A DNA stretch of 64,000 nt from a bacterium. Lineage in GTDB: Bacteria; Chloroflexota; Dormibacteria; Dormibacterales; Dormibacteraceae. Below the pieces are notes generated by a model, which worked only from the letters and a program-made list of their open reading frames with translations, made no database searches and had not been told where the DNA came from. The stretch's first letter is position 1; each line of letters starts with the position of its first letter. The translations under genes were made by a program, and so were the position numbers. Location: assembly GCA_004299235.1 (NCBI GenBank), contig SCQL01000004.1, positions 1 through 64,000 on the forward strand, read 5' to 3'. Shown piece after piece: positions 25,178 through 33,817 of the stretch.

Positions 25178-25561
25178 CTAGATCGTCGCGATGGTGACCC
25201 GGGCCCGTGCGGCGTCGACGATGTGCTGGACGTCGCGAGGATCTGAGGTCACAATCCCGTCGCCACGCCGTATGGCACCCTCGACGACGGCGACGTCAAC
25301 GATGTTCCTGTGGCTGGAGCGCCCAACGAGAACGCCCACGTCCTTTGCCTGACCCTCGCTCATAGCCTCGACTACGCAAAGTGCGAGGAAGCGGGCCAGG
25401 CTCGCCTGACGAGGGCCACCGCGCCAGGCTTCGGCAAGCACCGGTGCCGGGACGGTCGGCACTACTTCCCCGGCGAGGAAGCCGGCATGCAGCGCCCACA
25501 TTCGGCGGTCGTTGCGCTCGGCGGCAACCAAGGCGCCGGTGTCGTAGGTGACGCCGGGCAT
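25178..25561 (-). CDS. PIN-domain toxin (VapC-like)
   Basis: A 127-aa PIN ribonuclease. The N-terminal acidic residue is in VTYDTGALVAAERND. Glu in VLAEAWRGG and the C-terminal pair in NIVDVAVVEGAIRRGDGIVTSDPRDV complete the acidic site. This last motif, ending with TSDxxD, is characteristic. ATG 25561 directly abuts the stop of the upstream antitoxin gene with no gap. VapC toxins cut tRNA or rRNA when freed from antitoxin; the target here is unknown. Confidence 0.85.
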   Translation of the reverse strand: MPGVTYDTGALVAAERNDRRMWALHAGFLAGEVVPTVPAPVLAEAWRGGPRQASLARFLALCVVEAMSEGQAKDVGVLVGRSSHRNIVDVAVVEGAIRRGDGIVTSDPRDVQHIVDAARARVTIATI

Positions 25562-25834
25562 CTATCTAGGCAGACTCGCCAGGCGGCGCCGACTTCGTTT
25601 GCCGAGTAGCGCCCGGGCGCGGGCGAGACCATCCGCGAGCTCGTCTGCTGTCAGTGGGCCGTGGTCCGATTCCCACCCGGCGATCGCCTGCCGGCCTGCT
25701 TCCAAACGAAGGCGGTGAGCTGCCGTTCGTGCAATCCATCCGCTCACCGTCGTTCCCTCAGCGGCGGCTGCCCGCTCGATGTCATTCGCCAGGTCCGGCG
25801 GAAGCGAGATGGACCTCTTCAGGCGTTGAGCCAC
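25562..25834 (-). CDS. Ribbon-helix-helix antitoxin of the PIN toxin
   Basis: A 90-aa protein starting with a basic strand and RHH fold (QRLKRSISLPPDLANDIERAA, then GTTVSGWIARTA), followed by a tail that would wrap the toxin (LTADELADGLARARALLG). GTG 25834 is chosen because the RHH fold starts right after it; an ATG at 25864 would add ten residues. It precedes the toxin in the usual antitoxin-toxin order and should repress the pair. Confidence 0.82.
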   Translation of the reverse strand: MAQRLKRSISLPPDLANDIERAAAAEGTTVSGWIARTAAHRLRLEAGRQAIAGWESDHGPLTADELADGLARARALLGKRSRRRLASLPR

Positions 25835-26128
25835 ATTCCAATGGTAGTACAGCCGGTAGGACAAATCAATGCCAGTTGACAGCTTATCGAATGGACTGCG
25901 GTGGACTCTGGTGGACCCGATGGCCTGACGTAAAGGCCGCTCACCGTACTGGGGTAGACGGATATTCCTTATCCGTTGTTCCTCGTTCGTCGCGGCGACC
26001 CAGATGTTCTAAGCGGCCACCTGCAGATCAACGTGGTTGCGGCTAACACCTGCCCGCATGTAAAGAAGACGCGCGCGAGAGGGTCGTCGCTGCGGAGCTG
26101 GTATCACCACATGGCCGCCCGCCCGCTC

Positions 26129-26737
26129 TTACGCGACGAAGAAATCGATCGGTCGGCCCAGCCGCTCCGCGAGCTGGGAGAGGACTTCTTGCGATGGACG
26201 CACATCGGCGCTCTCGTACATGTGAACAGCGGCTCTGGAAACAATCCCCTCCCCCAGTGCCTGCAACGAGAGCCCAGCCGCCATCCGAGCCTCTTTCAGC
26301 GCGCCCGTTTTCAGAACGACCCCGGCCCGCCTGCCGCGCGTCCGTCGACCAAGGGCATGGCGGCCACGTGGTGGTTGCCCGCGTCCGTCCATCGCCGTGC
26401 GCATCCGATCGATCAGACGCTGCAGGTCCTCGATGCTGGGGCCCTCACCGGTCGCCGTGTTCCCGGCGACGAGGACATGGACGAGCTGTGGGGTTGGCGT
26501 GTACGAGGACGCGGGCGCGAGCTCGATGGCTACGACCTGACCCTTTCGATCGCGTTCAATGGTGATTCCGCCGGTCGCCGACTCGCGTCGCCTGCGCTTC
26601 AGCTCATGGTCGATGAATTCGAGCCGGATCACGTCGCTCGTCAGGTCCACAATCAGCCGCACGCTGGCAATTCTGGGATCTGGTCCACGCCATGTCCAGC
26701 GCCACGATCTGCTGCTAGGAGACGCGCGCCTCCTCAT
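26129..26737 (-). CDS. XRE-type HTH regulator with an N-terminal beta-rich domain
   Basis: About 202 aa. The N-terminal part (VRLIVDLTSDVIRLEFID, then GGITIERDRKGQVVAIEL) resembles the small DUF2283-type beta domain. A linker rich in Arg/Gly follows, then a C-terminal HTH (KEARMAAGLSLQALGEGIVSRAAVHMYE) with a PSQEVLSQLAERLGRPIDFF tail. The HTH is clearly related to that of the larger regulator immediately upstream, sharing VSRxAxHxxE, PSxExL and PIxxF. ATG 26737 overlaps that gene's end by 23 bp; GTG 26662 at the domain boundary is an alternative start. Probably a partner or paralogous regulator in one operon. Confidence 0.65.
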   Translation of the reverse strand: MRRRASPSSRSWRWTWRGPDPRIASVRLIVDLTSDVIRLEFIDHELKRRRRESATGGITIERDRKGQVVAIELAPASSYTPTPQLVHVLVAGNTATGEGPSIEDLQRLIDRMRTAMDGRGQPPRGRHALGRRTRGRRAGVVLKTGALKEARMAAGLSLQALGEGIVSRAAVHMYESADVRPSQEVLSQLAERLGRPIDFFVA

Positions 26738-28091
26738 CCCAGCGATTCAAGGCGATCTCAAAGGCGGCCGATCTGCCGATATGGGCAGCCAACTTCCACT
26801 GGCGCGCCGCCGCGCTCACATCTCCGCGGTCGTCGAGCAGTTGCGCGTATCTCATATGACACTCGCGTAAGCGGTCACGCATCTCACCCTCGCCGAGAAT
26901 GCGGATCGCCTGCAGAAAGTGATCGTCCGCCGAGCGCGGGTTGGCTTGCCGCTCTTTCAGCTGACCGAGGAGCATCTGCACGTCAGCCAGGACGATCCGT
27001 TCACCCAACGCCTTCCCGACCTCTTCGGCCTGATCCAGGTAGCTTCGGGCCTCCTCCAGGCGACCGTTTCGCAGACTGACGTCGGCGAGATTGGCCAGGA
27101 TGAAGCCGCGGCCGCGCCGGTCGATCCGGAGTGCTTCGGCCCCGGCCAGGGCGGTGAGGAGGTGTCGTTCAGCCAAATCGATCTGCCCTGCCTGCAGAAG
27201 CAACTGACCGAGATCGTTCTCGACCCGATATACAGCGCTCAAATCGGACTCGATGGCGTAAAGCGCCAGCGCCTTGTCGAAGTGCTGGCGGGCCCTGACC
27301 GGCTGCCGCAGACGCTGATATGCCGCACCCAAACCGTGGTGCATCTTCGCCAGCTGAAGCAGGTCCTTCACGGCACCGGCCGCATCGACGGCAGCTTCGT
27401 AATGACTGATCGCCAAGGCCCAGGATTCGCCCACGACGAACATGCCGGCGATGTGACCCAGGATCCGAGCCTCCAATTGGGGCGCCTGCGGTTCGAGTTT
27501 GCGGCAGCGCTCCAGCGCTTGGTTCGCAAGCGCGATGGCCTTTGGATCTTCCAGCAGCCCCCAGGCGCTCGCCTCCCAATCAAGCGCCTCGACCGACAGC
27601 CACTCGTCTTGTTGCCGCTCGAATTGCGCACGCGCCAGAGGTAGGTGGGCGAGTGCCTCTTGTGGTTGCACCAGTCTGCAATGGGCTTGGCCGAGATAGA
27701 AACGGACGAGCGCTCGCGCTTCTTCGCTCCACTGCTTCTCAAGGACCGTCACCCCGAGCTTGACGACCGCCTCGAAGTCACGAACCGACGTGAGCCGCTC
27801 GAGTTCGTGCAGCTCCTGTTGCGGCTCGGTCAGGCTTGGATGTGCACCTGGATCGAGCAGGAAGTACTCGATCGGCTTGCGAGTCTGGCGGGCGATCAGC
27901 TGAAGGGTTTCCAGGGAGGGCTTGACCCGGTCGTACTCAACAAGGTGGATCGCGGTTCGGCTGACCTGGTCGGCGGCGACGTCGGCCAGGCTCAGCCTGG
28001 CCTCGAGTCGCGCTTGGCGGACCGAGCCCTCTCGGATGGCTATCCCGCGGCGGCGACCACGATACCTGGTGTCGAGCATGGCGGTGAGCAT
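26715..28091 (-). CDS. XRE HTH-TPR regulator (RRNPP-like architecture)
   Basis: A 458-aa cytoplasmic regulator. An N-terminal XRE helix-turn-helix (about residues 24-72: RQARLEARLSLADVAADQVS) is followed by a long helical array of degenerate tetratricopeptide repeats (about 90-440), with repeat-like units such as GLGAAYQRLRQPVRARQHFDKAL and LGQLLLQAGQIDLAERHLLTAL. HTH plus TPR of this size is the architecture of PlcR, NprR, Rgg and AimR, which bind imported oligopeptides; Rap lacks the HTH. A gene for a 31-residue secreted peptide lies 43 bp upstream on the same strand, with its own strong ribosome-binding site. Peptide control is inference. Confidence 0.83.
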   Translation of the reverse strand: MLTAMLDTRYRGRRRGIAIREGSVRQARLEARLSLADVAADQVSRTAIHLVEYDRVKPSLETLQLIARQTRKPIEYFLLDPGAHPSLTEPQQELHELERLTSVRDFEAVVKLGVTVLEKQWSEEARALVRFYLGQAHCRLVQPQEALAHLPLARAQFERQQDEWLSVEALDWEASAWGLLEDPKAIALANQALERCRKLEPQAPQLEARILGHIAGMFVVGESWALAISHYEAAVDAAGAVKDLLQLAKMHHGLGAAYQRLRQPVRARQHFDKALALYAIESDLSAVYRVENDLGQLLLQAGQIDLAERHLLTALAGAEALRIDRRGRGFILANLADVSLRNGRLEEARSYLDQAEEVGKALGERIVLADVQMLLGQLKERQANPRSADDHFLQAIRILGEGEMRDRLRECHMRYAQLLDDRGDVSAAARQWKLAAHIGRSAAFEIALNRWDEEARVS

Positions 28092-28134
28092 ACCGCCATG
28101 CCCGACCGATCAGCGATCGATTTAGCGATTAACT

Positions 28135-28230
28135 TTACGGAGTCGGGCCGATGGAGCTCGCTGCGGCGGGCGCGATCGCGAGCACCACGCCCACGACCGC
28201 CAGCAATGCCGACATGACGAATCTGCGCAT
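28135..28230 (-). CDS. 31-residue secreted peptide, candidate signalling precursor
   Basis: ATG 28230 to TAA 28135-28137. Residues 1-4 are MRRF, 5-20 are a hydrophobic helix (VMSALLAVVGVVLAIA) and 21-24 are PAAA, a good signal peptidase site of the AxA type. After it only seven residues remain (SSIGPTP). An almost perfect Shine-Dalgarno AGGAGGTG (28238-28245) precedes the ATG. A lone signal peptide with a heptapeptide tail beside an HTH-TPR regulator is the layout of peptide-pheromone genes. The gene is short, so chance cannot be fully ruled out, but start signal, hydrophobicity and cleavage site agree. Confidence 0.6.
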   Translation of the reverse strand: MRRFVMSALLAVVGVVLAIAPAAASSIGPTP

Positions 28231-28540
28231 TTGGGTTCACCTCCTATTCAGTAATGGCGCGAGTGTCGGTTGAGTTGACAAGCACTGTCAACTCAAAGCG
28301 GCCAGAAGCGGAGACCAAGTGCGCGGCGTTGCCTGGCTACAAGAGCCAAGCTGTTAAATCATTGGTCCAAGGGGATTGGCCGGCGCCGCGCCTTCGCGGG
28401 GCCTGTGCGTGATGGGGCCTCAATGCAGGACCCAATCTCGATGGCATATGATCTACGAGATCTGATATGCAACGGCTCCTAGGGGCAGCGTGCCGTGGTT
28501 CAGCCCGCGATCACCCTGGTGGCCCAGAGGAGATGAGCCT
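28231..28540. promoter_or_regulatory. Divergent region between the peptide gene and the crotonase operon, with palindrome GATCTACGAGATC
   Basis: These 310 bases hold no further gene. They start with the ribosome-binding site of the peptide gene. TTGACAAGCACTGTCAA (28275-28291) is an inverted repeat (TTGACA/TGTCAA) that may be an operator for the peptide-regulator unit. At 28450-28462 lies GATCTACGAGATC, flanked by CATATG and GATATGC. Nearly the same block, including the following A-C-G-G-C, occurs at 39826-39838 upstream of the RraA-like operon, pointing to a shared regulator. Confidence 0.5.
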
Positions 28541-29396: not shown

Positions 29397-30317
29397 ATGA
29401 CAGTGACAATCGGTGTGGCTCAGTTCGTCAGTACCGACACGACGCATGAAAACCTACTTTCCATCGACAGAATGGTCGCGCGAGCAGCCGACCAGGGCGT
29501 GCAACTACTGGGCTTCCATGAAATTGCCAACACGTCCTACCCGTGTTTCATACAGGATCCGAAATACAGAGAACTTGCGGAGCCGATTCCGGGCCCCTCG
29601 ACAGATCACGCCAGTGAACTGGCGACCCGCCATGGCGTGCACATGGTCCTGCCGCTCTATGAACGCCAAGGCGACATGCGGTTCAATACGGCCGCCTTCA
29701 TCGAACCGGGCAAGGGCGTCGTGGGCAAATACCAGAAGTCTCACATTGCCAGGTCGCGCGTCCACAGCCCTGGGGACCTGAAGACGGCAGATGAAGCGTA
29801 TTACTGCGAACCGGGACAGACCGGATTCTCCACCTGGGACAACGTCCAGCTCGGAATCAGGATCGGGGTCCAGATTTGCTACGACCGGCATTTTTTTGAA
29901 GGAGCGCGCAGCCTCGGACTGCAGGGTGTCGACCTGGTGTTTGTGCCGACAGCCTCATATCGGAAGTTCATCATTGAAACGCTGTGGAACGCGGAGTTGC
30001 AGGCGATGGCGTTTCAGAACACGTTTTTTGTGGCGGGGATCAACAAGATCGGGCCGGTCACGGGTTTCACCGACGGCCGGCGGTTTCCCGGACGCTCGCT
30101 GATCGTCGATTTCGAGGGCCGGGTCATGTCTCAGGCGGGGGATGAGGAAGCGTTGGTGGTTGCCGACATTGATCCTGCGCGGGCTCAAGACGCGAGGGAC
30201 GTGCTGCGTTTCTATGAGCTCCGGAGACCCGAACTGTACGAGCAGCTGACGCGAATGGACGCGGGAGCCGACTTTGACAGGGCGGCGCACCGATCAGATG
30301 GAGATCCCCGCCTCTAG
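29397..30317 (+). CDS. Nitrilase-superfamily carbon-nitrogen hydrolase
   Basis: A 306-aa amidase/carbamoylase-type enzyme. The Glu-Lys-Cys triad is seen at E42 (FHEIANT), K114 (YQKSHI) and C161 (VQICYDRHF). The CYDRHFFEGAR and IGPVTGFTDGRRFPG patterns resemble beta-ureidopropionase and N-carbamoylputrescine amidase, so it may release ammonia and CO2 from an N-carbamoyl compound. ATG start with GAAAGGAGGTC. Its stop and the stop of livF share the palindrome CTAG at 30314-30317. Confidence 0.88.
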   Translation: MTVTIGVAQFVSTDTTHENLLSIDRMVARAADQGVQLLGFHEIANTSYPCFIQDPKYRELAEPIPGPSTDHASELATRHGVHMVLPLYERQGDMRFNTAAFIEPGKGVVGKYQKSHIARSRVHSPGDLKTADEAYYCEPGQTGFSTWDNVQLGIRIGVQICYDRHFFEGARSLGLQGVDLVFVPTASYRKFIIETLWNAELQAMAFQNTFFVAGINKIGPVTGFTDGRRFPGRSLIVDFEGRVMSQAGDEEALVVADIDPARAQDARDVLRFYELRRPELYEQLTRMDAGADFDRAAHRSDGDPRL

Positions 30318-31078
30318 ACCCCCAGGTACGCCCCCCGCACGTGGTCGTCGGTGAGGAGGCTTTTGGCCTCTCCCTCGAGACTCACGGTGCCCGATTCGAT
30401 GACATAGGCGCGGGTGGCAAGGCGCAAGGCCAGGCGGGCATTCTGCTCGACGAGCAGGACCGAAGTCCCCGCCTTGTTGATGCCCAATATCACCTCGGCG
30501 ATGGCGCGCACCATCATCGGTGCCAGGCCCAGCGAGGGCTCATCGAGCATCAGGACCTTTGGGGTACCCATCAGCGCCCTGCCGATCGCCAACATTTGCT
30601 GCTCGCCGCCGCTCAAGGTTCCCGCCAGTTGCTTGCGCCGGTTGGCGAGCACCGCAAAAAGGTCGAAGATCCGGGCCAGGTTTTGCTTCGCGGCCAGCCT
30701 GTTGGAGGCGCCGTAGGCGCCGAGGTCCAAGTTCTCCTGAACCGTCAGGGTCCCGAAGATCCTGCGACCCTCCGGTACGTGCGAGATGCCCATTCGCACG
30801 CGCTGATCAGCGGACACACCGAGCAGGTCGCGTCCCTGGAAGACGACCGCGCCGCGGCGGGGCCGCAGCAGACCCGAGATGGTGTTGAGCGTCGTCGTCT
30901 TGCCCGCGCCGTTGGCTCCGATGAGTGCGACCAGCTCAGACCGTCCGAGTTGCAACGATAGTCCGCGAAGGGCGCGGACGTCGCCGTAGTAGACGTCCAG
31001 GTCCCGCAGTTCGAGAATTGAATCGGTGCCCAATTCGCTGGCCCGATCAGGCAGACAGTGAATCGTCTTCAACGCCAA
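30314..31078 (-). CDS. livF: Liv-type ABC importer ATPase (LivF-like)
   Basis: A 254-aa ATPase of the branched-chain amino acid/urea/amide importer class. Walker A is GANGAGKTT, signature LSGGEQQML, Walker B VLMLDEPSLGL and switch LLVEQNA; the C-terminus RGAYLGV is typical of LivF. Start TTG 31078 lies inside the previous gene; TTG 31033 would remove the overlap. It completes a livH-livMG-livF transport unit. The class imports varied polar compounds, so the substrate cannot be read from it. Confidence 0.88.
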   Translation of the reverse strand: MALKTIHCLPDRASELGTDSILELRDLDVYYGDVRALRGLSLQLGRSELVALIGANGAGKTTTLNTISGLLRPRRGAVVFQGRDLLGVSADQRVRMGISHVPEGRRIFGTLTVQENLDLGAYGASNRLAAKQNLARIFDLFAVLANRRKQLAGTLSGGEQQMLAIGRALMGTPKVLMLDEPSLGLAPMMVRAIAEVILGINKAGTSVLLVEQNARLALRLATRAYVIESGTVSLEGEAKSLLTDDHVRGAYLGV

Positions 31079-32873
31079 GGTATGCCTCTATCACCTCCGA
31101 ATCGTTCCGGATCGTCTCTGGAGCACCCTGGGCGATCCTGCGGCCGTAATTCAAAACGACGATCTGATCGGCCAGGCCCATGATCAGCGGCATCGTGTGC
31201 TCGACGAGCAAGACCGTTATTCCGAGGTCAACGATCTGCCTGATAAGTTGCGTCAGGTCAAGGCGCTCGCGGTCGTTCATGCCGGCCGCCGGCTCGTCCA
31301 GGATCAACAGCTCCGGCTGGGTCGCCAGCGCGCGCGCGATCTCCAGCCGCCGCTGGTCGCCGTAGGAGAGGTTCTTGGCCTCCGTGTAGGCCAGGTTTCC
31401 GAGGCCGACGAATTCGAGCTGACGAAATGAATTGGCGATGATCGCTCGTTCTTCCGCCTGCTGCCTGGGGGTGCGAAACACGATTCCGAGCACACTGGCG
31501 CGGCTGCGCGAGTGACATCCCGCCATCACGTTCTCGATCACGGACATGGTGCCGAACAGGCGGATCGATTGGAAGGTGCGGGCTATCCCCGCATCCACGA
31601 TCCGGCTGGGCCGCCAGTGATGGATCGGCCGGCCCTTGAACAGGATTTCGCCCCGGTCCGGTCGGGTGAACCCGGTGATGAGGTTGAACACGGTCGATTT
31701 GCCCGCGCCGTTGGGCCCGATCAGGGCAGTCACCCGACCGGCCTCGATCACGAAGTCCAAGTCGTCGACAGCGGCCAACCCCCCGAAATGCTTGGTGAGG
31801 TTGCGGACCTGTAGGAGTGGGCCCGTCGCCGCTCCGGGTCGGGTGACCCGGGTCGCGCCCCGGCCGCCGAGGTGGTCGGCGGCGCCTCCGCCCCGCGCGT
31901 ACCGACGCACCTTGTTCGGCCACAGCCCTTGAGGCCGGTAGATCATCATCCCGATCAGTACGATGCCGAAGACGATGAACCGGTAATCCTGCAGCCCCCG
32001 CAGCGCTTCGGGCAGCACGATCATCGCGGCGACGCCGACGAAGACGCCAGGCAATCGACCCGATCCGCCGATGAGGACGATGATCAGGACGGTCACCGAC
32101 TCCCAGACCGAGAAGCTGTCCGGTGTGACGACCGACAGGATGGCGGCAAACATGACTCCGGCCAAGCCGGCGCAGGTCGCGCCCAGGCCGAAGGCCAAGA
32201 GCTTGGTGGTTACCAGGTTGATACCGACGGCTTCGGCCGCGATCTCGTTGTCACGGATGCACATCCATGCGCGGCCCAATCTGGAGTTGCCGAGGCGGGC
32301 CACCGCGATCAGAATCAACACGGTCGCGGGAAGCACCAGGTAGTACTGCTGCATCGGTTCGACCAGATCGATGCCGAAGAAGTTGGCGGCGGGTACGCCG
32401 ACCACGCCGTTCGGTCCTCCGGTCAGCCAGTCGAGGTTGCGCACGCTGAGGCGGATGATCTCGCCGAAGCCCAGCGTGACCACGGCCAGGTAGTCCGCGC
32501 GCATCCGCAGCACCGGAAAGCCCAGCAGCGCTCCCGCCAAGCCGGCCAGAATCGCTCCGACCGGCAGCAGCAGCCAGAAGCTGATTCCGTAGTGAGTGGC
32601 CAGCAGCGCCGAACTGTAGGCACCGATCGCGTAGAAGGCTATGTACCCGAGGTCGATCAACCCCGTGTAGCCGACCACGATCTCCATGCCCGAGGCCAAC
32701 ATGATGTAGAGGCTCGCTTCGACGCAGATCGCCAGCACATAGTTGTTGGGTACGAGCAGCGGAAAAGCCGCGGCGACGGCAATCAGCAGGCCGGTCCGCC
32801 GGCGGCTGTGGCCGGCCCCCACCAACGGCAACCTCGACGTCCTCTCACCCAGCGCTTGCAGCATCCCCACCAT
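31047..32873 (-). CDS. Fused LivM permease and LivG ATPase
   Basis: A 608-aa fusion. Residues 1 to about 345 are a LivM-type permease with about 8-10 membrane segments and motifs ASGMEIVVGYTGLIDLGYIAF and GGSGRLPGVFVG. After a Gly/Arg-rich linker the C-terminal part is LivG: Walker A GPNGAGKST, VFNLITGFTRPDRG, ARTFQSIRLF, signature LSYGDQRRLEIARAL and Walker B LLILDEPAAGM. These are usually two genes; a single chain fixes their stoichiometry. ATG 32873 overlaps the livH stop (TGATG). A longer start exists but would add residues within livH. Confidence 0.9.
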   Translation of the reverse strand: MVGMLQALGERTSRLPLVGAGHSRRRTGLLIAVAAAFPLLVPNNYVLAICVEASLYIMLASGMEIVVGYTGLIDLGYIAFYAIGAYSSALLATHYGISFWLLLPVGAILAGLAGALLGFPVLRMRADYLAVVTLGFGEIIRLSVRNLDWLTGGPNGVVGVPAANFFGIDLVEPMQQYYLVLPATVLILIAVARLGNSRLGRAWMCIRDNEIAAEAVGINLVTTKLLAFGLGATCAGLAGVMFAAILSVVTPDSFSVWESVTVLIIVLIGGSGRLPGVFVGVAAMIVLPEALRGLQDYRFIVFGIVLIGMMIYRPQGLWPNKVRRYARGGGAADHLGGRGATRVTRPGAATGPLLQVRNLTKHFGGLAAVDDLDFVIEAGRVTALIGPNGAGKSTVFNLITGFTRPDRGEILFKGRPIHHWRPSRIVDAGIARTFQSIRLFGTMSVIENVMAGCHSRSRASVLGIVFRTPRQQAEERAIIANSFRQLEFVGLGNLAYTEAKNLSYGDQRRLEIARALATQPELLILDEPAAGMNDRERLDLTQLIRQIVDLGITVLLVEHTMPLIMGLADQIVVLNYGRRIAQGAPETIRNDSEVIEAYLGVEDDSLSA

Positions 32874-33817
32874 CAGAGCTTCTCGACCACTCGCTCGCCG
32901 AACAGACCCCACGGTCGGAAGAGGAGCATCAGGATGAGGACGACGAAGGCTATGGCGTCGGTCCATTCCGAAGATACGTAGCCGGCGACCAACGCCTCCA
33001 CCACCCCCAGCGCGAAGCTCATGAGGACCGCGCCCAGGATGTTGCCCATGCCTCCGAGGACAGCGGCGGTGAAGGCTTTAAGGACCGCCTCGAAGCCCAT
33101 CAGATAGTTGAGGGCGCCGTACTGCAATCCATACATCACGCCGGCCACGCCACACAGACCTGAGCTCAAGACGAAGGCGATCACGATCACCCGGTTGACA
33201 TTTATGCCCATGAGCAGGGCTGTGCCGGGATCGAGACCGATCGCTCGCATGGCCTTGCCGACATTGGTTCGCTGGACGTAGAGATGGCAGCCGATCATGA
33301 ACACCAGCGAGGTGATCACGATCACGATCTGCGCGGGCGTGATCACGAGCCCGGCAAACAGGAACTTGGCGTACGGCAGGATGGCTGGGAACTGTGGGTA
33401 TCCCTTGCCCCAGACGATCATCACTATGTTCTGGAGTAAGAGCGAGACGCCGAGGGAGGTCATGAGCAGTGGGACCTTCTCGTTGCGGCCGATCGGCCTG
33501 AACGCGAACCGTTCCGAAAGGACGCCGCTGACCACCGAGCCGGCGACCGCGGCGACGAGGGCGAGGCCGACCAGCAAGAAAAGGGGCAGGTGCAGCCATG
33601 ACCCGGTGGAGATGATGGCGGTCATGCCGAAAAAGGCGCCGACGGTGAAGTAGTCGCCGTGGGCGAAGTTGATCAGCTTCATGACGCCGAAGACGATCGT
33701 GAAGCCGATCGCGACGAGGGTATAGCGCGCCCCCGTCGTGACGCCGTTGACGAGTTGCTGCCCGAACAGCGACAGCCCCCCGCCGCCCAGGACGCCAAAC
33801 ATGTAGCCAGCTAGCAC
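32873..33817 (-). CDS. livH: Liv-type ABC importer permease (LivH-like)
   Basis: A 314-aa membrane protein with about 8 segments. Motifs: the N-terminal GQQLVNGVTTGARYTLVAIGFTIVFGVMKLINFAHGD is the classic LivH consensus, and the internal MRAIGLDPGTALLMGINVNRVI matches the coupling helix with its GI(N) turn. GTG start after AAGGAGATG. It is the first gene of a minus-strand importer operon, divergent from an amidase and a Liv-type binding protein that probably belong to the same transport system. Confidence 0.9.
   Translation of the reverse strand: MLAGYMFGVLGGGGLSLFGQQLVNGVTTGARYTLVAIGFTIVFGVMKLINFAHGDYFTVGAFFGMTAIISTGSWLHLPLFLLVGLALVAAVAGSVVSGVLSERFAFRPIGRNEKVPLLMTSLGVSLLLQNIVMIVWGKGYPQFPAILPYAKFLFAGLVITPAQIVIVITSLVFMIGCHLYVQRTNVGKAMRAIGLDPGTALLMGINVNRVIVIAFVLSSGLCGVAGVMYGLQYGALNYLMGFEAVLKAFTAAVLGGMGNILGAVLMSFALGVVEALVAGYVSSEWTDAIAFVVLILMLLFRPWGLFGERVVEKL

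Follow-up and report, generated by a model that had tools for sequence, protein, structure and literature searches.

A candidate RRNPP-like peptide-pheromone module with an upstream propeptide gene in Dormibacterota

Intracellular peptide-pheromone signaling is, to our knowledge, documented almost solely in Bacillota. The window analyzed here (the whole stretch of 64,000 nt at the start of contig SCQL01000004.1, from a member of the Dormibacteraceae) carries a very small gene for a putative secreted peptide directly upstream of a gene for an HTH-TPR regulator, raising the question of whether the two constitute such a system in another phylum. A sequence-only reading of the window had proposed a peptide-pheromone circuit at this locus, and every element of its description was confirmed from the sequence: a 31-codon ORF with a Shine-Dalgarno (SD) sequence, AGGAGGT; a signal peptide, MRRFVMSALLAVVGVVLAIAPAAA, terminating in PAAA; a predicted mature tail, SSIGPTP; and, after a gap of 43 nt on the same strand, an HTH-TPR ORF of 458 aa (Table 1). 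Two further conserved elements, an inverted repeat upstream of the peptide gene and a stem over the regulator start, had gone unnoticed in that reading.

Table 1. Coordinates of the features of the locus in the window
Feature	Position	Strand	Basis or detail
Propeptide gene, 31 codons	28135..28230	minus	ORF and SD; ortholog conservation
HTH (XRE, HTH_3) and nine-TPR regulator, proposed cytoplasmic peptide receptor	26715..28091	minus	Pfam, AF2
Perfect inverted repeat TTGAGTTGACA-N5-TGTCAACTCAA, 11-bp arms, proposed operator	28270..28296		Overlaps -35 TTGACA
Putative peptide promoter P1	28262..28291 (approximate)	minus	TTGACA, 18 nt (17 in several orthologs), GACACT
Putative leaderless regulator promoter P2	28079..28092	minus	-10 TATGCT (28092-28087), 7 nt, ATG 28079
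15-bp stem with 6-nt loop	28071..28106	minus	Encloses P2 -10 and regulator start

Homologs of the regulator were drawn from 61 related genomes, and their upstream regions were read in the proper orientation with a strict detector that required 24-40 codons, an SD, a K/R start and a hydrophobic core. The detector was positive upstream of 45 of the 72 Dormibacterota homologs, compared with 0 of 72 reverse strands of the upstream regions and 1 of 592 stretches of the window. Four further precursors recognized by eye bring the total to 49, in about 35 of the 61 genomes. Their length is 26-36 aa (exactly 31 or 32 aa in 38), and most consist of a KR n-region, a hydrophobic core, an A/V-x-A site and a tail of 5-9 aa, with cleavage sites judged by motif (AxA). 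The gap between peptide and regulator genes ranges from 22 to 170 nt. The sequence-only reading had asked for a small ORF upstream of homologous regulators, coding for a signal peptide and a short variable tail, and such ORFs are present, with tails of 5-9 aa.

Nine orthologous propeptide loci have IGPT(P/G) tails. Across these nine orthologs, pN/pS is 0.08 for the last five residues, IGPTP, whereas the signal part has 0.49 and its hydrophobic core 0.61, and synonymous change is high throughout the precursor (pS about 0.53). Because pN/pS is lowest in IGPTP and pS is even, the strongest selection acts on the exported tail, not on the membrane part; coding constraint, another expectation of the earlier proposal, is thus strong and concentrated where a signal would reside. 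A chance ORF was ruled out by the detector counts together with the constraint on the tail. We conclude from these comparisons that 28135-28230 is a real coding gene.

The regulator matches Pfam HTH_3 and TPR_12, which are common to 43 of 43 aligned homologs, and an AF2 model (8 sequences, pLDDT 82) displays an HTH and nine TPR hairpins. In a Foldseek search with this model LGN (LGN/GPSM2) came top and Rap proteins lower, the closest bacterial signaling matches being RapI, Rap-pLS20 with Phr* and Rap-phi3T. An HMM search of the PDB agreed, with generic TPR proteins (LGN) best and Rap chains below. Taken at the level of predicted fold, these matches show a TPR superhelix, not membership in the Rap/NprR subfamily. 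The regulator matched only generic TPR/HTH models in Pfam, NCBIfam and PHROGs, with no named RRNPPA subfamily among them, and no homology above the generic TPR/HTH level to Rap, Rgg, NprR, PlcR, PrgX, AimR or ComR was found. No phage match and one weak plasmid TPR match were found for the receptor, and the idea that it came from a phage or other mobile element was rejected.

Inner TPR helix-A positions show more clade specificity than other positions, a modest effect (permutation p 0.017) based on author-assigned rather than coordinate-based TPR numbering, and N292 in TPR6 is nearly universal among the receptors. In RRNPP structures, conserved asparagines touch the peptide backbone. The clade-specificity of the groove and the conservation of N292 fit peptide recognition, although they are suggestive only. 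The regulator ORF opens with an ATG (28091) that falls within a -10-like TATGCT and is missing in five of nine orthologs, so the true start is probably 28079, which would give a protein of 454 aa. The end of the regulator gene is overlapped by a minus-strand ORF (26129-26737) encoding a weak DUF2283-like segment and a lone HTH (38% identity to that of the regulator) followed by a stop; it is possibly the relic of a second receptor.

The perfect inverted repeat is located upstream of the peptide gene, 40 nt from its start. All nine orthologs keep TGAGTTGAC and GTYAASTCA, with variable flanks and a spacer of 6 or 7 nt. Its left half provides a TTGACA that is separated from GACACT by 17-18 nt; the resulting putative promoter P1, with a leader of about 30 nt that includes the SD, is weak by consensus and is missed by a simple sigma-70 scan. 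The palindrome is unique in its own genome at up to three mismatches. An exact scan of the 61 genomes with the consensus gave matches in seven, every one at an IGPTP peptide-receptor locus (control, 0), and an eighth genome has two copies with one flanking base off consensus. Since the consensus is confined to IGPTP loci, the palindrome is very probably the operator of the receptor and would serve local autoregulation, a link supported by this co-occurrence; its position over the -35 of the peptide promoter suggests repression. At up to three mismatches, no second convincing operator site or regulon was found in the genome, and a looser core gave two extra imperfect sites, which is not above the reversed control. 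No equally clear palindrome was found upstream of the peptide gene in the other receptor clades.

The regulator itself appears to have a separate promoter. The TANNCT/TANNGT motif at P2 is kept in nine of nine orthologs, the spacing between -10 and start is alike in the xPCC, WPNP and orphan clades described below, and a -10 located seven nt before ATG 28079 fits a leaderless mRNA. The same region is enclosed by a stem with 98.3% of cells paired over eight distinct sequences, two pairs with double changes, and a folding z of about -4 to -6 in all nine orthologs. This stem may be an RNA hairpin in a read-through transcript or a DNA dyad; in a read-through transcript it would conceal the regulator start codon. 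At four STGPGI-type loci (L044, L045, L017 and L018), a 12-nt arm, CCCGCGTGGCTT, follows the peptide stop and is complementary to codons of the regulator N terminus, AAGCCACGCGGG, forming an unrelated-looking second stem that is also expected to cover the regulator start. No known RNA element and no terminator were found at the window's locus.

In a maximum-likelihood tree of 71 receptors, tails co-segregate with receptor clades. The clade of the window has the tail IGPT(P/G)(K/R); the other tail groups are STGPG(I/V)/STGPHI, WPPGT and WPNP(T/M/L), together with an xPCC-type (xxPCC) clade of 16 receptors. Several distinct tails occur within single genomes, that of the window having SSIGPTP and GGSVPCCP. 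A mostly orphan Dormibacterota clade comprises 21 receptors, only three of them with a peptide; the peptide-less members could be listeners or repurposed regulators. Several orphan-clade receptors adjoin a prephenate-dehydratase-like ORF (by eye), and a palindrome, ACTTAAC-N3-GTTAAGT, is located upstream of many receptors of this clade (that of L006, G000:C2:181808-183082). Within the IGPTP clade, the match of one locus (L014, G010:C29:313722-314777) spans only residues 91-442 and no upstream peptide gene was found there; HTH and signal were apparently lost together.

Beyond these families, HTH-TPR regulators of other Chloroflexota classes have the identical domain order and match the family profile at E < 1e-30, but in a set of 40 such relatives, which takes in two distant Dormibacteria loci, a comparable SD-preceded signal-peptide ORF was found upstream of only one. 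Because of this rarity, peptide-receptor pairing is a trait that belongs to two Dormibacterota families rather than to HTH-TPR genes at large. The sole strong small ORF outside Dormibacteria, MARQLVILLAAVVSLLVEASEVALAGPRPPCVPGWGC, is at L149 (G281:C44), upstream of 67489 and before an HTH-TPR gene.

Flanking genes are not common to the window and the more distant orthologs, and the conserved elements therefore belong to the module; no linked output gene was found in this comparison. The ABC importers of the window, which had been invoked in favor of peptide re-import, turn out not to be specific evidence, as those in the inspected part (30314-33817) resemble, by eye, branched-chain-amino-acid (LIV) components. 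Elsewhere in the genome there are eight matches to SBP_bac_5 oligopeptide-binding proteins. On the other side of the regulator, a minus-strand segment (25178-25864) contains an RHH antitoxin-like ORF (25562-25864; weak in Pfam) directly followed by a 127-aa PIN-like ORF recognized by eye, which is likely a VapBC-type toxin-antitoxin pair.

In the published RRNPP signature, a receptor of 250-500 aa with TPR repeats and an optional HTH is adjacent to a propeptide of 10-100 aa with a Sec signal peptide, at a gap of -60 to 400 nt; the mature C-terminal oligopeptide, re-imported by an oligopeptide permease, binds the TPR domain and alters its activity (PMC10075063). The regulator agrees with this signature in size (458 aa, or 454 from the likely start) and in domains (HTH_3, TPR_12 and nine TPR hairpins), as does the propeptide in length (31 aa) and distance (43 nt). 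Published surveys keep to Firmicutes. RRNPPA matches are likewise described only from Firmicutes, and their propeptides are known "immediately upstream or downstream" of the receptor (PMC9765709). The upstream peptide order, put forward in the sequence-only reading as a new arrangement, had thus already been described. Its placement of the system outside the usual phylum is borne out by the host lineage, which is Dormibacterota and not Bacillota, and a literature search limited to open-access articles found no paper tying RRNPP-type peptides to Chloroflexi or Dormibacterota. Overall, the circuit idea is strengthened by the homolog survey and the tail constraint, and loses the novelty of gene order and the support of the window importers.

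With the RRNPP/RRNPPA systems NprR-NprX, PlcR-PapR and AimR-AimP, the Dormibacterota system would share an HTH-TPR cytoplasmic receptor of 250-500 aa, a propeptide of the Sec type, 10-100 aa long and encoded no more than 400 nt away, that ends in a mature tail of 5-9 aa, and many orthogonal pairs. It differs in lying outside Bacillota; in an upstream propeptide that has hardly any pro-region, its tail coming directly after the predicted signal peptidase site; and in a receptor that has its own putative leaderless promoter and, in the searches made, is no closer in sequence to any named subfamily. The nine-TPR scaffold and the expansion of orthogonal pairs are also features of Rap-Phr of Bacillus, and both the HMM and the Foldseek search list Rap chains among their bacterial matches; however, Rap has no HTH and targets response regulators, and the Phr gene is downstream. 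We conclude that the novelty is in lineage, family size, near-absent pro-region and private operator, not in gene order.

By analogy with these systems, we consider it probable that the locus is a self-contained RRNPP-like peptide-pheromone module, in which autorepression is lifted by the heptapeptide of the locus once it is back in the cell. Each proposed step, from export and re-import to TPR binding and derepression, is modeled on the known examples. Sec would export the 31-aa propeptide, signal peptidase I would cut it to free SSIGPTP, and an oligopeptide permease would take the heptapeptide back in, to be bound in the concave TPR groove of the neighboring HTH-TPR protein, itself expressed from the leaderless promoter. 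In the absence of peptide, a dimer of this protein would sit on the palindrome, covering the -35 element from which the peptide gene is transcribed, and repress the promoter; binding of peptide would release the dimer, and peptide production would feed forward. The family of pairs has expanded in Dormibacterota, and their different tails would act as separate channels.

The same parts could serve a cell-autonomous sensor, in which the peptide is bound in the same cell or re-imported mainly by its producer and reports secretion, peptide turnover or envelope state rather than a census of neighbors. We regard this as unlikely: the only detectable target is indeed the own promoter, with no linked output gene, but several orthogonal tails per genome and tail conservation across species fit communication better. 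The molecular parts of the two are identical, and sequence cannot discriminate between them on that score. Considerably less probable is a membrane toxin or bacteriocin as the product of the small gene, with the HTH-TPR protein as its repressor or immunity regulator. The size and single hydrophobic segment of the peptide resemble those of type I toxins, and some paralogs have CC-rich tails; yet it is the tail that is selected while the hydrophobic part drifts, the AxA site is retained in most precursors, and no modification or immunity genes are common to the loci. The strong stem that is conserved at the start of the regulator would suit a leader peptide (uORF) that acts on the regulator through its translation, by attenuation or coupling, its product being irrelevant. 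We discarded this reading as very improbable, since the amino-acid tail is conserved while synonymous sites change freely, gaps range as widely as noted above, there is no terminator and the regulator seemingly has its own leaderless promoter.

Returning to the peptide-pheromone module, we are evenly divided over a broader reading, in which Dormibacterota evolved and expanded a peptide-receptor family independently of Bacillota, from ordinary Chloroflexota HTH-TPR regulators, so that many genomes would hold several orthogonal channels along with orphan listeners, every receptor controlling its own peptide promoter via a private operator. SSIGPTP and its relatives can be synthesized, and together with one exact candidate operator they make the proposal directly testable in a standard host. 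The peptide-less HTH-TPR regulators of sister classes offer a starting point for the evolution of such systems. If the proposal is true, lineage-wide pairs in these largely uncultured soil bacteria would mean that such communication arose or spread beyond Bacillota.
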